Origin: Anaeromassilibacillus sp. An200
GTDB taxonomy: Bacteria > Bacillota > Clostridia > Oscillospirales > Acutalibacteraceae
Direction: 5' to 3'
DNA: 64,000 nt
Assembly: GCF_002160025.1 (NCBI RefSeq)
Contig: NZ_NFJU01000011.1
Location: 1-64,000 of the forward strand
The translations under genes were made by a program, and so were the position numbers. A model generated the notes under the pieces. The model saw only the letters and a list, made by a program, of their open reading frames with translations. It was not told where the DNA came from and searched no databases. The stretch's first letter is position 1. The number at the start of each line of letters is the position of its first letter. Positions 29,337-37,167 of the stretch are shown piece by piece.

Positions 29337-30469
29337 TCAGGAAAGCCGTTCCTTAAAATCCTCATAGCCAAACCGGCGCACCAGAAAGCGATTGCCGTTC
29401 TTGTCCCTCCAGACAATGGAGGGGAGCGCCATGCCGTTGAACGTATTGGTTTTGACCATCGTATACAGAGCCATATCCTCAAACACGAGGCGATCACCTT
29501 CGCGCAGCGGCACATCGAAGGAATAGTCTCCGATGACATCCCCGGCCAGACACGTCGGCCCACCAAGACGGAAGGTATGCGCTTTCTCTCCCGGCTGGCC
29601 CGCATCCCGCAGCGGCGGACGGTAGGGCATTTCCAGCACGTCCGGCATATGGCAGGCCGCGGAGGTGTCAAGAATTGCGATATCCATACCGTTCTGAAGC
29701 GTTTCCAGCACACTGGTCACCAGGAATCCGGCGTTGAGCACCACGGCCTCCCCCGGCTCCAGATACACCTGTACACCGTAGGTTTCCTTCAAATGGCGCA
29801 CCACACGGATCACCCGCTCCACATCGTAATCGTCGCGGGTGATATGATGGCCGCCGCCGAGATTCAGCCACTTCATCTGAGAAAGCCAGCGGCCGAATTT
29901 TTTCTCCACCGCCGCGACCGTCTCCTCCAGCGCGTCGGAGTTTTGCTCGCAGAGCGTGTGGAAATGCAGGCCGTCGAGCAGCGGAAGGATCGATTCGTCA
30001 AACTGGGCAAGCGTTGTGCCGAGACGGGAGCCGGGCGAGCACGGATCGTAGATCGCGTGTCCCTCCTGTGTGGAGTGCTCCGGATTCAGCCGCAGGCCGC
30101 AGGATTTCCCGGCAGCGCGGGCGCGGGGCGCAAAGCGGCGCACCTGAGCCGGGAAATTGAACACAATATCATCCGCGTATTGCAGCAGCTCGTCCCACTC
30201 GTCCTCGCGGTAGGCAGGGGAAAACACATGGGTCTCCCCTCCGAATTCCTCATGCCCGAGACGGGCTTCATACAGGCCGCTGGCCGTACTGCCCGCAAGA
30301 TACTGCCGCAAAAGCGGATAGACAGAAAACATGGAGAACGCCTTCTGTGCCAGCAGGATTTTACAGCCTGCCCGTTCCTGCACGTCCCGCAGGATTTCCA
30401 GATTATGCGTGAGCCGCGTTTCATCCACCAGGAAATACGGCGTGCGCGGCTCTCCTGTGATCGGCTGCA

Positions 30470-30470
<1 letters not shown>
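29337..30470 (-). CDS. nspC: Carboxynorspermidine/carboxyspermidine decarboxylase
   Basis: 377 aa, fold III PLP decarboxylase. The PLP lysine lies in LLAQKAFSM, and LNLGGGHH, EPGEAVV and GPTCLAGD are the family motifs. It converts carboxyspermidine to spermidine, or carboxynorspermidine to norspermidine. Its partner dehydrogenase is immediately upstream, with start and stop overlapping (TGATG). Last gene of the six-gene polyamine operon. Decarboxylation of carboxyaminopropylagmatine is an alternative activity in this family. Confidence 0.92.
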
Positions 30471-31729
<1,259 letters not shown>

Positions 31730-31756: not shown

Positions 31757-32608
31757 TTAATGCAAAGCGAGCAGCATCTCGCGAACTACCTTGCAGGCCG
31801 CCGCCGTGGAGATCCCGCTGGGATCGTAGGGCGGGCTGAGCTCGTTGACATCGCACGCGACCACGTTGGCACGGCTGCACACAAGTGTCACGGCGCGGCG
31901 CAGCGCGTCAAAGGACACGCCGCCCGGCTCCGGCGTCCCCGTTCCCGGGAACACGGAGGGATCCAGAACATCCAGATCCACGGTAAAATAGACCGGCTTT
32001 CCCGACAGGCGATCCAGCGTTTCTTCCAGGCCCTCAAAATCGAAGCGCCGGGTTGTCACATGCTCCATACCCCAGCGGAATTCTTCGCGGTCGCCGGAGC
32101 GAATGCCGAACTGAAAGATTTTTCCGTCTCCCACCAGCTCCCAGCAGCGGCGCAGAACGCAGGCGTGGGACAGCTTCGCGCCGAGATAATCGTCGCGAAG
32201 GTCGGCGTGCGCGTCAAAATGGATCACATGCAGCTCCGGAAAATGACGGGCCGCCGCGCGGAACGCCCCCAGCGTGACCAGATGCTCACCGCCGAGCAAA
32301 AAGGGACGCTTGCCTGCCGTGAGGATTTCCTCCGCGGCTTCCTCAATCTGGGCCAGCGCCGTGGACGCATCCCCCAGACAAAGCTCCAGATCTCCCAGAT
32401 CCATCACCGCGATGTCCTGCAAATCCTTATCCTGATACGGGCTGTAGCTCTCGATTCCAAACGATTCCCGCCGGATGGCCCCGCTGCCAAAACGCGTGCC
32501 GGGGCGGTACGAGGTGGTGCAGTCAAAGGGAGCGCCGAACAGCACGGTACCGGCTTCATCGGCTTCCTTGTCACAGCACATAAAAACTTCAATATTCCTG
32601 TTCAACAT
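31757..32608 (-). CDS. speB: Agmatinase / ureohydrolase
   Basis: 283 aa arginase-fold enzyme. Manganese ligands are in GGEH, HFDAHADLRDDY and TVDLDVLDPS. It hydrolyses agmatine to putrescine and urea. An N1-aminopropylagmatine ureohydrolase activity is possible, since the upstream gene encodes an aminopropyltransferase. The start overlaps the end of speE by 20 bases and has GAGGAG ten bases upstream. Confidence 0.9.
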   Translation of the reverse strand: MLNRNIEVFMCCDKEADEAGTVLFGAPFDCTTSYRPGTRFGSGAIRRESFGIESYSPYQDKDLQDIAVMDLGDLELCLGDASTALAQIEEAAEEILTAGKRPFLLGGEHLVTLGAFRAAARHFPELHVIHFDAHADLRDDYLGAKLSHACVLRRCWELVGDGKIFQFGIRSGDREEFRWGMEHVTTRRFDFEGLEETLDRLSGKPVYFTVDLDVLDPSVFPGTGTPEPGGVSFDALRRAVTLVCSRANVVACDVNELSPPYDPSGISTAAACKVVREMLLALH

Positions 32609-33449
32609 CTTTCAGCAGCTCCTCCACATACGCGGGCAGATAAAACGCGCCCTTATGCAGTGTTGTTGTATAGTAGCGGCATTTCAGGCCGCGCAGATTC
32701 CACTGTGTTTCCTTGAGGTCGCGCAGCGGGTGGTATTTCTTGGATGCAAAACCGAACAGCCAGTGGCCGGACGGGTATGTCGGAATGTGCGCCTGATAGA
32801 CGCGGCTGATATGGAACGACTCCACAATCCGCTTGTGTGCCCGCTGGCAGGCTGCGGCGTCCGCCTGATAAAACGGGCTTTCATGCTGGTTGACCATGAT
32901 CCCATCCTCGCGCAGCGCCTTGAAGCAGCTTCCGTAAAATTCCCGGGTGAACAGCCCCTCTCCCGGCCCGAACGGATCGGTCGAGTCAACGATGATGAGA
33001 TCGTAGCAGTTTTCCTTTGAGCGGACAAACCGCACGCCGTCCTCATAATGGATGCTCAGGCGCGGATCGTCGAGACGGCAGGCGGTCTGCGGAAGATACT
33101 TTTTGCAGACCTCCACCACCAGCGGATCGATCTCCGCCATGTCGATGTGTTCAATCTCGGGATAGCGCGTCAGCTCACGGATCACGCCCCCATCCCCCGC
33201 GCCGATGACGAGTACATCCCGCACCTTGGGATGCACTGCCATGGGAACATGGGTGATCATTTCATGATAAATGAATTCATCCTTTTCGGTCAGCATCATA
33301 TAGCCGTCAAGTGTGAGAAAACGGCCAAACTCCGGCGAATCAAACACGTCGATGCGCTGAAACTCGCTGTTTCCGGAATACAGCTGCTGGTCCACACGGA
33401 TGGACAGCTTGACGTTCGGCGTCTGTGCTTCGGAAAACCAGAAATCCAC
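32589..33449 (-). CDS. speE: Spermidine synthase
   Basis: 286 aa. The decarboxylated-AdoMet binding motif VLVIGAGDGGVIRELTRY and the acidic DSTDPFGPGEGLF are present. It transfers aminopropyl groups to putrescine or a related amine. Start choice: an ATG at 33458 abuts the AAGGAGG directly, with no spacing, whereas GTG at 33449 has nine bases and gives the usual VDFWFSE N-terminus right after the speA stop; I prefer GTG. Third gene of the operon. Confidence 0.9.
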   Translation of the reverse strand: MDFWFSEAQTPNVKLSIRVDQQLYSGNSEFQRIDVFDSPEFGRFLTLDGYMMLTEKDEFIYHEMITHVPMAVHPKVRDVLVIGAGDGGVIRELTRYPEIEHIDMAEIDPLVVEVCKKYLPQTACRLDDPRLSIHYEDGVRFVRSKENCYDLIIVDSTDPFGPGEGLFTREFYGSCFKALREDGIMVNQHESPFYQADAAACQRAHKRIVESFHISRVYQAHIPTYPSGHWLFGFASKKYHPLRDLKETQWNLRGLKCRYYTTTLHKGAFYLPAYVEELLKDVEQEY

Positions 33450-33450
33450 T

Positions 33451-34908
33451 TTATTCATCCTCCTTGAGCACGTTCAGGCGCTCGATCTCGGGGTTTTCCG
33501 GCCCCGTCATCGAACAGCCCTTCTCCTTGGCATACTCGATGTAATCCAAAATCGGATCGGTGATGCGCTCGCCCGGCGCGAGGATCGGGATCCCCGGCGG
33601 GTAGCACATGACAAACTCGCTGCACACGCGCCCTGCCGTCTCCCGCAGAGGAAGCGACTCCTTCGGCGCATAGAAGGCATCCTGCGGTGAAACAGCCACC
33701 TGCGGATCGATGTATTCCTGCGTCATGAGATCCGCCTTGCTGCGCCCGAAACGGCGGCGCACCTCGGAAAGCGCGCTTACCAGCCGCTCGATCTCGCGTG
33801 GACGGTCGCCCACGGAGACATAGGCGAGAATGTTGCCGAGATCGCCGAATTCAATCTGAATGTCGTATTCATCGCGAAGCAGGTCGTAGACCTCAATCCC
33901 CGCCAATCCCACGTCGAGCGTATTGACGGAAAGCTTCGTCACATCAAAATCGTAAACACTGTCGCCATTTATGAGTTCGCGGGAGAAGGCGTAATAGCCG
34001 CCGATCGCGTTGATCTCCTCCCGCGCGTATTCCGCCAGCCGGAGCACGCGATCAAAATCCGTTTTTCCGCGCAGGGCAAGGTTGCGCCGCGAAATATCGA
34101 GACTGGAAAGCAGGAGATACGATCCGCTCGTCGTCTGCGTCAGATTGATGATCTGGCGCACATGGCCCTCCTGCATGGCCGGGCCGGTCAGAAGCAGGGA
34201 ACTCTGTGTCAGGCTGCCGCCGGACTTGTGCATGGAAACGGCGGCCATATCGGCCCCTGCCGCCATCGCGGAGACGGGAAGCCCCTCCCCGAAATAAAAA
34301 TGGGTTCCGTGTGCTTCGTCGGCCAAACAAAGCATCCCATGCTCATGCGCCAAACGCACAATCGTGCGCAGATCCGAACAGATACCGTAATAGGTCGGGT
34401 TATTGACCAGCACAGCCTTCGCGTCCGGATTCTCCCGGATCGCCTTCTCCACTGCGGAAACGCTCATCCCCAGCGGGATACCGAGACGGTTATCACATTC
34501 CGGGTTGACATAGACAGGGATCGCACCGCACAACACCATGGCGCCCATCACGCTGCGGTGCACATTGCGGGGAAGAATGATCTTTTCTCCCCTTTTGGCA
34601 ACGGAGAGCACCATGCTCTGCACCGCCGAGGTTGTCCCTCCCACCATGAGGAAGGCATTTGCCGCCCCAAAAGCCTCCGCGGCCAGCTGTTCCGCCTCCC
34701 GGATCACGGAAACGGGGTGGCAGAGATTATCCAGCGGCTTCATGGAATTGACGTCCATGGAAACACACTGTTCTCCAAGAAGCTGCGTCAGCTCCGGGTT
34801 GCCGCGGCCGCGCTTGTGGCCGGGCACATCGAAGGGAACAACGCGCATCTGGCGGAAGCGCTCGAGCGCTTCATAAATCGGCGCGCGCTCCTGATTGTGA
34901 AGCTCCAA
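33451..34908 (-). CDS. speA: Arginine decarboxylase (Orn/Lys/Arg decarboxylase, fold I)
   Basis: 485 aa, the short bacillus/clostridial type. The PLP lysine lies in SMHKSGGSLTQSS; DEAHGTHFYF and VNNPTYYG are conserved. Placed before speE and speB, it most likely makes agmatine from arginine; lysine or ornithine decarboxylase activity cannot be excluded from sequence. Start is TTG with GGAGG eight bases upstream, 13 bases after the speD stop. Confidence 0.88.
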   Translation of the reverse strand: MELHNQERAPIYEALERFRQMRVVPFDVPGHKRGRGNPELTQLLGEQCVSMDVNSMKPLDNLCHPVSVIREAEQLAAEAFGAANAFLMVGGTTSAVQSMVLSVAKRGEKIILPRNVHRSVMGAMVLCGAIPVYVNPECDNRLGIPLGMSVSAVEKAIRENPDAKAVLVNNPTYYGICSDLRTIVRLAHEHGMLCLADEAHGTHFYFGEGLPVSAMAAGADMAAVSMHKSGGSLTQSSLLLTGPAMQEGHVRQIINLTQTTSGSYLLLSSLDISRRNLALRGKTDFDRVLRLAEYAREEINAIGGYYAFSRELINGDSVYDFDVTKLSVNTLDVGLAGIEVYDLLRDEYDIQIEFGDLGNILAYVSVGDRPREIERLVSALSEVRRRFGRSKADLMTQEYIDPQVAVSPQDAFYAPKESLPLRETAGRVCSEFVMCYPPGIPILAPGERITDPILDYIEYAKEKGCSMTGPENPEIERLNVLKEDE

Positions 34909-34921
34909 ATTGTCCCCCTCC

Positions 34922-35680
34922 TCAGTAAATGTTCCGGCCGCTGAAAATTTCGATCATCTCGCGGCGCAGATTATCCATGATATTCAGCCGCGTGCGGGGC
35001 GGCAGCTCGTAAACGTCCGTTTTAAACAGGTAATTCTGAAGATCGATTTCCTTGAGCATCATCTTCGTATGGAACAGGTTCGCCTCATACACATTGATAT
35101 CCACCGTATCATAACGGCGGAGGATCTCGTCGGAAATGTAATCCTGAATGGAGGTGATGCGGTGATCGAGAAACAGTTTTTTGCCGTTCACATCGCGGGT
35201 AAAGCCGCGCACACGGTAATCCATCGTGATGATATCGGAGTCAAACGAACCAATCAGATAGTCGAGCGTCGAGAGCGGGGTGATTTCTCCGCAGGTCGCC
35301 ACGTCGATATCCACGCGGAAGGTAGCCAGAAACGTCTCCGGATGATACTCCGGGTAGGTGTGCACCGTCACATGGCTTTTATCCAGATGGGCCAGCTGGG
35401 TCTGCCCGGCGGGAACCATGGAACCCTCCGCAATCAGAAGGGTAACGGACGCTCCCTGCGGCTCGTAATCCTGCTGGGCAATATTGAGCACCTTTGCGCC
35501 AATCATCTCCGTGAGGGTGGTCAGGATATTGGTCAGACGCTGCGAATTGTACTGTTCATCAATATAGGAAATATAATCCTGCTGTTCCCGCGCTGTTTTG
35601 GCGTAGCAGACATCGTAAATATTAAAGCTCAGCGCCTTAGTCAGGTTATTAAAGCCGTATAATTTCATCTTCTCTCCCAT
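34922..35680 (-). CDS. speD: S-adenosylmethionine decarboxylase, E. coli (class 1A) type
   Basis: 252 aa. It closely follows the E. coli-type proenzyme: [31 protein letters not shown], and the processing site before Ser in [14 protein letters not shown], where cleavage makes the pyruvoyl cofactor. It supplies decarboxylated AdoMet to SpeE. ATG at 35680 has AGGAGAG seven bases upstream; a second ATG lies four codons on. First gene of the operon, behind a long structured leader with a terminator. Confidence 0.92.
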
Positions 35681-35755
35681 GCAGAAGCTCTCCTCTTCCT
35701 CTGCGCCGCCCCCCGGCGGTTCGCTGCGGTGATGATCGGGACACCCCGAAAGAAA

Positions 35756-35792
35756 TAAAAAACAGGCGATGTGCGCTGTGCACATCGCCTGT
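35756..35792 (-). terminator. Terminator at the end of the polyamine-operon leader
   Basis: Perfect 13-bp stem ACAGGCGATGTGC/GCACATCGCCTGT with a five-base loop, then six T residues on the minus strand. It lies about 75 bases before the speD start. I see no promoter between it and speD, so the operon must be read through it. Confidence 0.88.
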
Positions 35793-36140
35793 CATCCGTC
35801 AAAATCAATCCCCATCCGCAGGAATACAAAGCCCCCGCGGGCAGAAAGCCGCCTGTGATGGTTCGATACAGAGTCTATATAGCAAATACTTACTTTTACT
35901 ACTCTTATTGACCTTTTACAAGTTGATGTACGCTATGCGCACCGGTTATAAAGGAACCAACTCATAAAATTGAACCTTCCGTTTTTCCTTTCAGGCACTT
36001 CGGCTCAATCAATAACGGCGGCTGACGCCGCCCTTCGGCAGTTGACCCGGCTGTCCGTATGGCCTTGACCTGAGAAAAACACTCAGGTGGTCGAAGAAAG
36101 ATTTGCATGGATACTCTGTAGTCACTCATATCACATGTCG
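35793..36140 (-). ncRNA. Candidate structured leader RNA / riboswitch or stand-alone ncRNA upstream of speD
   Basis: About 350 nt on the minus strand, AT-richer than its surroundings, with no ORF. It starts at a near-consensus promoter and ends in a strong terminator. A closing helix joins 36120-36113 with 35874-35867 (TACAGAGT/ACTCTGTA). It stacks on a second helix, 36106-36101 with 35887-35882 (GCAAAT/ATTTGC). Inside are hairpins at 36088-36068 (ACCTGAG/CTCAGGT), at 36031-36016 (GGCGGC/GCCGCC), and a branched unit closed by AGTTG/CAACT containing GGTT/AACC and GTGCGC/GCGTAC hairpins. It matches no riboswitch consensus I know (SAM, lysine, M-box, TPP, cobalamin, T-box). A housekeeping ncRNA of clostridia is the main alternative. 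Confidence 0.6.
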
Positions 36141-36146
36141 ATTGTA

Positions 36147-36174
36147 ATTATATCATACCACTCGATATTGTCAA
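36147..36174 (-). promoter_or_regulatory. Strong promoter of the leader RNA / polyamine operon
   Basis: Minus strand consensus TTGACA (36174-36169), 16-base spacer, consensus TATAAT (36152-36147); predicted start near 36140. Both hexamers are perfect, the best promoter match in the window. Confidence 0.85.
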
Positions 36175-36223
36175 CCGCTTTGCGCGAGTTGACAGAGATT
36201 TTACACAATCGTCCCGCAAAACG

Positions 36224-36964
36224 TCAATTCGGGGCGTTTTTTGTCCGTTTTTTCTCTCTTCTCAGCTGGAACTTTTCCACCCAGCCCTTCTGATAGCGGA
36301 TCGAGATATAGCCGATCACCGCCATCACCAGCGCGCCGATCGTATCGACAATCAGATCCTTCATGGTATCCATCAGCGCGGCGCGGCCCACCAGCGGCTC
36401 CCCGCTTTCCAGGGCAAATTTCTGCATGTTGGTGTGCAGAAGCCCGTCCGCGGTGAATTCATAGAATTCCCAGACCACGCCGAGAAACACCGCGAAGCAC
36501 AGCGTAAAAAAGGCAACAAACACCGGGCTGAGGTTCATGGGCACGCGATCCGTCCGGTTGAGAAAATTAATCACGGAAAAGCCCAGCGCTCCCAGCATTG
36601 CCCCACTGAAGGTATGCAGAATCGTGTCCCAGTGCGGCACATTGTAATAGAACGACCGCACCTCCCCCAGAAAGATAGCGCAGTAGAGGAACACCGCAAA
36701 CAGCACCATCATTTTGGAGGGGATGATCAGCTGCCATTTATGGCGCAGAAGACTTGGCAGCAGCATCGCCACAACGCCTACAATGCATTGGAGCAGCATC
36801 AGCACATAGTCGCCCTTGACACGGCGGTACGGCATGGTGGGATCCGGCTCCGACGGCGCCAACGCCATAGCAACAGAAATAAACACGACAGATCCGGCCA
36901 TGCTCAGAAAGATAAACCACCAGAGAATTTTCGTCCAATTCAGAGAAATCCGTTTTTTTGTCAT
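36224..36964 (-). CDS. Polytopic membrane protein (YjdF/DUF2238-like), paralogue of 11227-11907
   Basis: 246 aa with about six membrane segments. HWDTILHTFSG, WEFYEF and DTMKDLIVDTIGA are shared with the protein at 11227-11907. Function unknown. Its ATG overlaps the stop of the small membrane protein gene upstream (ATGA), and that gene in turn overlaps rsmA, so the three form one operon. Confidence 0.68.
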   Translation of the reverse strand: MTKKRISLNWTKILWWFIFLSMAGSVVFISVAMALAPSEPDPTMPYRRVKGDYVLMLLQCIVGVVAMLLPSLLRHKWQLIIPSKMMVLFAVFLYCAIFLGEVRSFYYNVPHWDTILHTFSGAMLGALGFSVINFLNRTDRVPMNLSPVFVAFFTLCFAVFLGVVWEFYEFTADGLLHTNMQKFALESGEPLVGRAALMDTMKDLIVDTIGALVMAVIGYISIRYQKGWVEKFQLRREKKRTKNAPN

Positions 36965-37167
36965 TTGCGTCCCTCCTCCTCCGGCGGATCGTCCGTTTCC
37001 TTCCAGCTTGAAACAGCCAGAAACAATCCCGCGCAGGCCAAAAAGCACGCTGTCACCGCACAGGCAATCGCCCAGCCGCTGATTCCGAACGGCCCCAGCA
37101 CGCACGATACCAGCGTCAGCACCAGACCAATCTCAAAAAAGATGACGGCCATCTTCCCGTCGCTCAT
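36961..37167 (-). CDS. Small two-TM membrane protein
   Basis: 68 aa with two hydrophobic segments (about 7-24 and 30-52) and an acidic C-terminal tail. No family recognised. It is real on context: its start overlaps the rsmA stop by four bases and its stop overlaps the next start by four bases. Confidence 0.65.
   Translation of the reverse strand: MSDGKMAVIFFEIGLVLTLVSCVLGPFGISGWAIACAVTACFLACAGLFLAVSSWKETDDPPEEEGRK

Follow-up and report, generated by a model that had tools for sequence, protein, structure and literature searches.

A structured leader RNA ahead of a polyamine operon in Anaeromassilibacillus sp. An200: a probable transcription attenuator that contains RF02440 as an optional module

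The window, that is, the whole stretch of 64,000 nucleotides analysed here, carries on its minus strand a polyamine operon preceded by a long leader RNA. The features are listed below in the direction of transcription, with the evidence for each in brackets.

36147-36174, minus strand: sigma-70 promoter (read directly from the sequence)
36101-36120, minus strand: 5' arm of the long-range closing helix P1, CTACAGAGTAT..GCAAAT (own-versus-cross duplex test)
36035-36093, minus strand: module I, RF02440 SpF59_sRNA / ldcC RNA, optional in the wider family (67.8 bits, cutoff 37.2)
36016-36033, minus strand: GC-rich hairpin GGGCGGCGTCAGCCGCCG between modules I and II (sequence and minimum-energy fold)
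35870-36015, minus strand: module II, the conserved 126-position domain of model R1 (109.4 bits, E 5.6e-21; no Rfam match)
36009-36015, minus strand: P3 5' strand TTATTGA (pairs with 35905-35911)
35959-35966, minus strand: P5 5' strand TATGAGTT (pairs with 35917-35924)
35918-35931, minus strand: predicted antiterminator 5' half GTACATCAACTTGT, formed by the 3' strands of P7 and P5 (complementarity)
35917-35924, minus strand: P5 3' strand AACTTGTA, shared with the predicted antiterminator (alignment counts and fold)
35905-35911, minus strand: P3 3' strand TCAATAA (pairs with 36009-36015)
35867-35891, minus strand: P1 3' arm AAGTATTTGCTATATAGACTCTG (duplex test and fold)
35756-35792, minus strand: intrinsic terminator, a 13-bp stem followed by T6 (stem -24.1 kcal/mol)
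35780-35792, minus strand: terminator 5' arm ACAGGCGATGTGC, also the predicted antiterminator 3' half (complementarity)
34922-35680, minus strand: speD, S-adenosylmethionine decarboxylase (E. coli type), the first gene (TIGR03331, 399 bits; PF02675)
33451-34908, minus strand: Orn/Lys/Arg decarboxylase (PF01276)
32589-33458, minus strand: speE, spermidine synthase (PF01564)
31757-32608, minus strand: speB-like agmatinase of the arginase family (PF00491)
30470-31729, minus strand: carboxynorspermidine/carboxyspermidine synthase-like protein of the saccharopine dehydrogenase family (PF16653; NF043000 below cutoff)
29337-30518, minus strand: nspC-like carboxynorspermidine/carboxyspermidine decarboxylase (PF00278), whose exact substrate we infer from the operon context

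An earlier note on this DNA had claimed a perfect promoter, and both elements are indeed perfect, with the -35 TTGACA at 36174-36169 and the -10 TATAAT at 36152-36147 separated by a spacer of 16 nt; transcription would start near 36140. A sigma-70-like promoter (at most 2 mismatches of 12) was also found upstream in 136 of 167 homologues compared with 11 in shuffles. The two long-range helices proposed in the note are both present in the minimum-energy fold of the 385-nt leader, the internal hairpins are as it described in both sequence and fold, and the 13-bp terminator with T6 was confirmed. The start of speD at 35680, preceded by AGGAGAG, lies 75 nt past 35755, in line with the note. Just upstream of the promoter there is an ORF of 293 aa (36224-37105, minus strand) that looks like a membrane protein by eye and for which Pfam gave no match at E<=1e-5.

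RF02440 was the single Rfam 15 match across the whole window. It covers model positions 1-54 of 54, and with a score over the gathering threshold (67.8 vs 37.2 bits) and the association with polyamine genes, the leader RNA is a member of the RF02440 family by Rfam criteria. Besides this, only chance-level Rfam matches were obtained at E<=10 in 35500-36400, and 6S, tmRNA and raiA gave no match either in the whole-window scan or in that region at E<=10. The Rfam scan proposed earlier therefore returned a polyamine-linked RNA and no housekeeping ncRNA. The statement that the leader fits no riboswitch consensus holds only in part, since RF02440 matches the 5' module; the 126 positions of module II are without an Rfam match. 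Rfam classes RF02440, a model of 54 positions, as an sRNA; one match apiece was found in 25 of 96 relatives, 41 of 391 class genomes and 18 of 398 phylum genomes. For an RF02440 locus of S. pneumoniae, F59/srn235, a transcript between SP0915 and SP0916 has been reported; two studies differ on its length, 82 nt or 327 nt (PMC3395615, PMC12323649). Given the latter length, a pneumococcal transcript longer than the RF02440 model has already been reported.

When the loci were compared side by side, conservation was found to reach far past the RF02440 model, in the order TTATTGATTGAG..GCTCAAATTTTATAAGTTGGTTACTTTATAACC..ACTTGTGAAACGGTCAATAAGAGTAGTAAAAGTA..TTTGCTATATAGACTCT. At least 118 loci of named genomes contain an exact copy of GGTCAATAAGAGYAGTAAAAGYR, many of them without the RF02440 hairpin. 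R1 is a covariance model built on this 126-nt domain, and the domain was present in all 76 RF02440 loci fetched (14 + 62) as well as in 20 short-form loci, in all 20 of which, tested by Rfam, RF02440 was absent. Since the domain also occurs without RF02440 and is never missing from the RF02440 loci fetched, the constant part of the element is module II with P1, and RF02440 is optional.

The helices of module II were evaluated in 78 diverse sequences. The proposed helices were paired in 94% of cells compared with 29-47% when slid, and 13 pairs were changed on both sides compared with 4.3 in shuffles; covariation, whose absence the note had named as a refutation, is present. P5 has such changes at 3 of its 7 pairs. 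P3 is paired in 99.3% of cells and mostly invariant, and therefore yields no covariation. With the MAFFT alignment, RNAalifold recovered P3, P4 and a local hairpin at the 3' side but not P5-P7, a probable result of misalignment in the variable loops. Some loci depart from the common layout. L131 and L148 have insertions of about 100 bases, seemingly structured, within the P6 hairpin region. A minimal form lies directly upstream of speD in L234 (about 1018-1159) and L236 (about 1061-1204); it keeps the promoter, a short P1-like arm and the 3' strand AACTTGTGAA..GGTCAATAAGAGTAGTAAAAGTA (approximate in L236), and is without the usual TTATTGATTGAG half.

P1 was tested by own-versus-cross pairing because alignment A1 omits its 5' arm. 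In the window, CAGAGTAT at 36118-36111 and GCAAAT at 36106-36101 pair with AAGTATTTGCTATATAGACTCTG. The 3' arm of each locus was paired with its own 5' region and with those of the other loci, and the own partner was better in 124 of 144 loci (-19.8 vs -16.1 kcal/mol, p=7.6e-21, a value to be read as a rank since the loci are related). The same relatedness makes the cross control conservative. A previous version of the test with a narrow 5' window gave a weaker result than the wider one, and the P1 3' strand could alternatively pair locally with AGAGTAG. The P1 duplex test and the compensatory changes together describe a conserved, structured, aptamer-like domain with covariation, as is looked for in a riboswitch. 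As far as comparison between sequences can establish it, the element comprises conserved sequence, P1, helices P4-P6, a downstream terminator and an association with polyamine genes.

Such conservation could also reflect a regulator protein that binds module II and chooses between terminator and antiterminator. Stretches such as GAGTAGTAAAAGTA are very strongly conserved, and the minimal form in L234 and L236 keeps the 3' conserved strand without the usual 5' half of module II, both of which would suit a protein-dependent attenuator. However, the conserved part far exceeds the size of typical protein-binding leaders as generally known, the element spans many families of the phylum, and linkage to a gene for a partner protein was not seen. 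We thus regard a protein-dependent attenuator as decidedly unlikely.

Terminators are enriched downstream of the element (97 of 150 loci vs 18 of 80 control stretches). A looser definition of a terminator gives 144 instead of 97 of the 150 loci, but it picks wrong hairpins in some of them. The window is one such case: the script chose the wrong hairpin there, and the terminator was assigned by eye. The P7 3' strand with the following ACTTGT is in many loci complementary to the 5' arm of the downstream terminator; in the window, the predicted duplex of 35931-35918 with 35792-35780 has an energy of -14.4 kcal/mol. The complement of the conserved CTTGT occurs in the terminator 5' arms of 96 of 144 loci compared with 17.5 in shuffles. 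The pairing past CTTGT is locus-specific (5.41 vs 4.36 bp, permutation p<=0.001, in 71 loci with an assignable terminator), and the excess of own over cross pairing is confined to RNA windows overlapping the segment of the P7 3' strand and ACTTGT. The predicted antiterminator pairing beats both controls in 47 of 87 and 73 of 144 loci; its support comes from the family as a whole and not from every locus. Because the predicted antiterminator strand is the 3' strand of P5 and P7, the folding of module II and antitermination would be mutually exclusive.

The gene context was determined for 187 loci, of which 8 had no downstream DNA and 4 preceded other genes. Polyamine genes lie directly downstream on the same strand in 175 of the 179 loci having downstream DNA. 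Of the 187 loci, 67 have an Orn/Lys/Arg decarboxylase as the first recognised gene and 58 have speD; a carboxynorspermidine synthase-like gene leads in 13, and a potA-like ABC ATPase leads in 36 (37 when L013, read by eye, is counted); representative PotA and PotD-like proteins were confirmed with NCBIfam. Another 12 loci, all weak or RF02440-negative matches of R1 from outside model building and one of them at E=3.4e-4, lie directly upstream of speD or the decarboxylase without exception, and they are the strongest independent test. The R1 element was found in 40 of 291 class genomes (about 14%) and 18 of 299 phylum genomes (6%), including genomes without an RF02440 match, and also in Faecalibacterium prausnitzii (gut) and in Bacillus.

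In four loci, L121, L141, L162 and L175, the 3' arm is slightly different (for example, TTTACTGTATAGACTCT) and the first downstream gene is not polyamine-related. The proteins that follow look secreted and peptidase-like, with Pfam M28 in L121 and L162 and papain-like C39/C70 in L141; the short ORF of L175 resembles the L121 protein and is without a Pfam match of its own. Separately, in L086, from a record titled Salinivirgaceae, the element is upstream of decarboxylase-speE-speB, as it is in L179, from a similarly divergent record. Transfer outside Bacillota or a misbinned contig is possible for both.

Two further explanations are affected by this gene context. The first, implied by the name SpF59 sRNA, is a stand-alone small RNA that acts in trans and from which read-through reaches the operon only incidentally. 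Rfam's typing of RF02440 and the short F59 transcript reported in pneumococcus (PMC3395615, PMC12323649) agree with it, but we consider it very improbable given the same-strand adjacency to polyamine genes, in the 12 further loci as well, and the complementarity of the terminator sequence to the element's own conserved strand. The second is an attenuator that senses a precursor or by-product (AdoMet, decarboxylated AdoMet, MTA, agmatine, arginine or lysine) and not the polyamine end product. It is compatible with the attenuation part of our best explanation, of which it is a variant, and the frequent first gene, speD or an arginine/lysine-type decarboxylase, would accord with it. However, a precursor signal makes less sense for the roughly 37 loci that precede potA-led uptake operons, and so this variant is unlikely. 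In particular, AdoMet or arginine is less likely than a polyamine as the ligand because potABCD uptake operons bear the same RNA.

The earlier note had also stated that the leader contains no ORF. An ORF of 55 aa does exist at 35962-36129, but in substance the statement holds, as no frame is conserved through the leader. The overlap of this ORF with the leader is what would favour peptide-leader attenuation through a translated uORF of the speFL or odc1 type. Besides the missing conserved frame, in-frame starts with an SD-like sequence before them occur in just 3-6 of 134 loci per frame and the differences in spacer length fall across all three frames; a conserved translated uORF was rejected on these grounds, and we give peptide-leader attenuation hardly any credence.

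We therefore return to cis-acting control by the RNA itself. The note had proposed that a large RNA acts in cis on polyamine synthesis through premature termination, and the conserved architecture, the compensatory changes, the gene association and the predicted antiterminator support this. The leader is probably a cis-acting transcription attenuator that governs the whole operon, most likely an orphan polyamine riboswitch with spermidine as the first guess. Transcription would begin near 36140 and the leader would fold into P1, the optional module I and module II. When module II is not stabilised, complementarity predicts that 35918-35931 leaves P5 and P7 to pair with 35780-35792, and RNA polymerase would then continue into speD. 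At high polyamine levels, the ligand would keep P5 and P7 within the aptamer, the terminator would form and polyamine synthesis or uptake would be turned off, which makes a putative OFF switch. For the broader reading, a widespread and unlisted polyamine riboswitch class of Bacillota with module II and P1 as the aptamer and the RF02440 hairpin serving optionally as an accessory or a second sensor, we would put the chances at about even.

Relative to the Rfam catalogue, the 126-nt domain, the short form, P1 and the platform appear to be new. The 'ldcC' motif reportedly originated in a motif paper of 2017, and no paper on an 'ldcC motif' turned up in the literature searched. Part of the element's full architecture may already have been published in the ldcC motif literature. 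RNA-based polyamine sensing has been long sought, and the present element occurs in about 14% of the sampled class genomes. The 54-nt Rfam fragment is without P1, module II and the platform, so that ligand tests made on it would probably fail. With the boundaries and the predicted switch defined, the identity of the ligand becomes a directly testable question.

When compared with known systems, the odc1 and speFL leaders are alike in being RNA leaders that control polyamine biosynthesis. The speFL leader depends on a translated uORF. The same holds for odc1, whereas the leader here is without a conserved frame. The RF02440 entry, SpF59_sRNA, is alike in its gene context, with F59 upstream of SP0916 and the present element upstream of polyamine genes; the difference is that the 54-position sRNA entry corresponds here to a single, optional part of a leader that also has P1, module II and a terminator. 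The potC motif (RF01751) and the potE motif (PMC8632094) are likewise candidate cis-regulatory RNAs beside polyamine transport genes, but the former is listed as marine only and gave no Rfam match in the leader at E<=10, and the latter is confined to Veillonella with weak covariation (PMC8632094). The spermidine riboswitch class, consisting of rare SAM-I variants, is similarly located upstream of ldcC/speE/speB/speD genes (PMC10853860). Its aptamer is SAM-I-like, while our leader differs in sequence and architecture; no SAM family matched the leader at E<=10 in Rfam, and a SAM-I-like aptamer was not found. Nevertheless, the spermidine riboswitch is a transcriptional OFF switch with a terminator and an antiterminator (PMC10853860), and the same arrangement is predicted for the leader described here.
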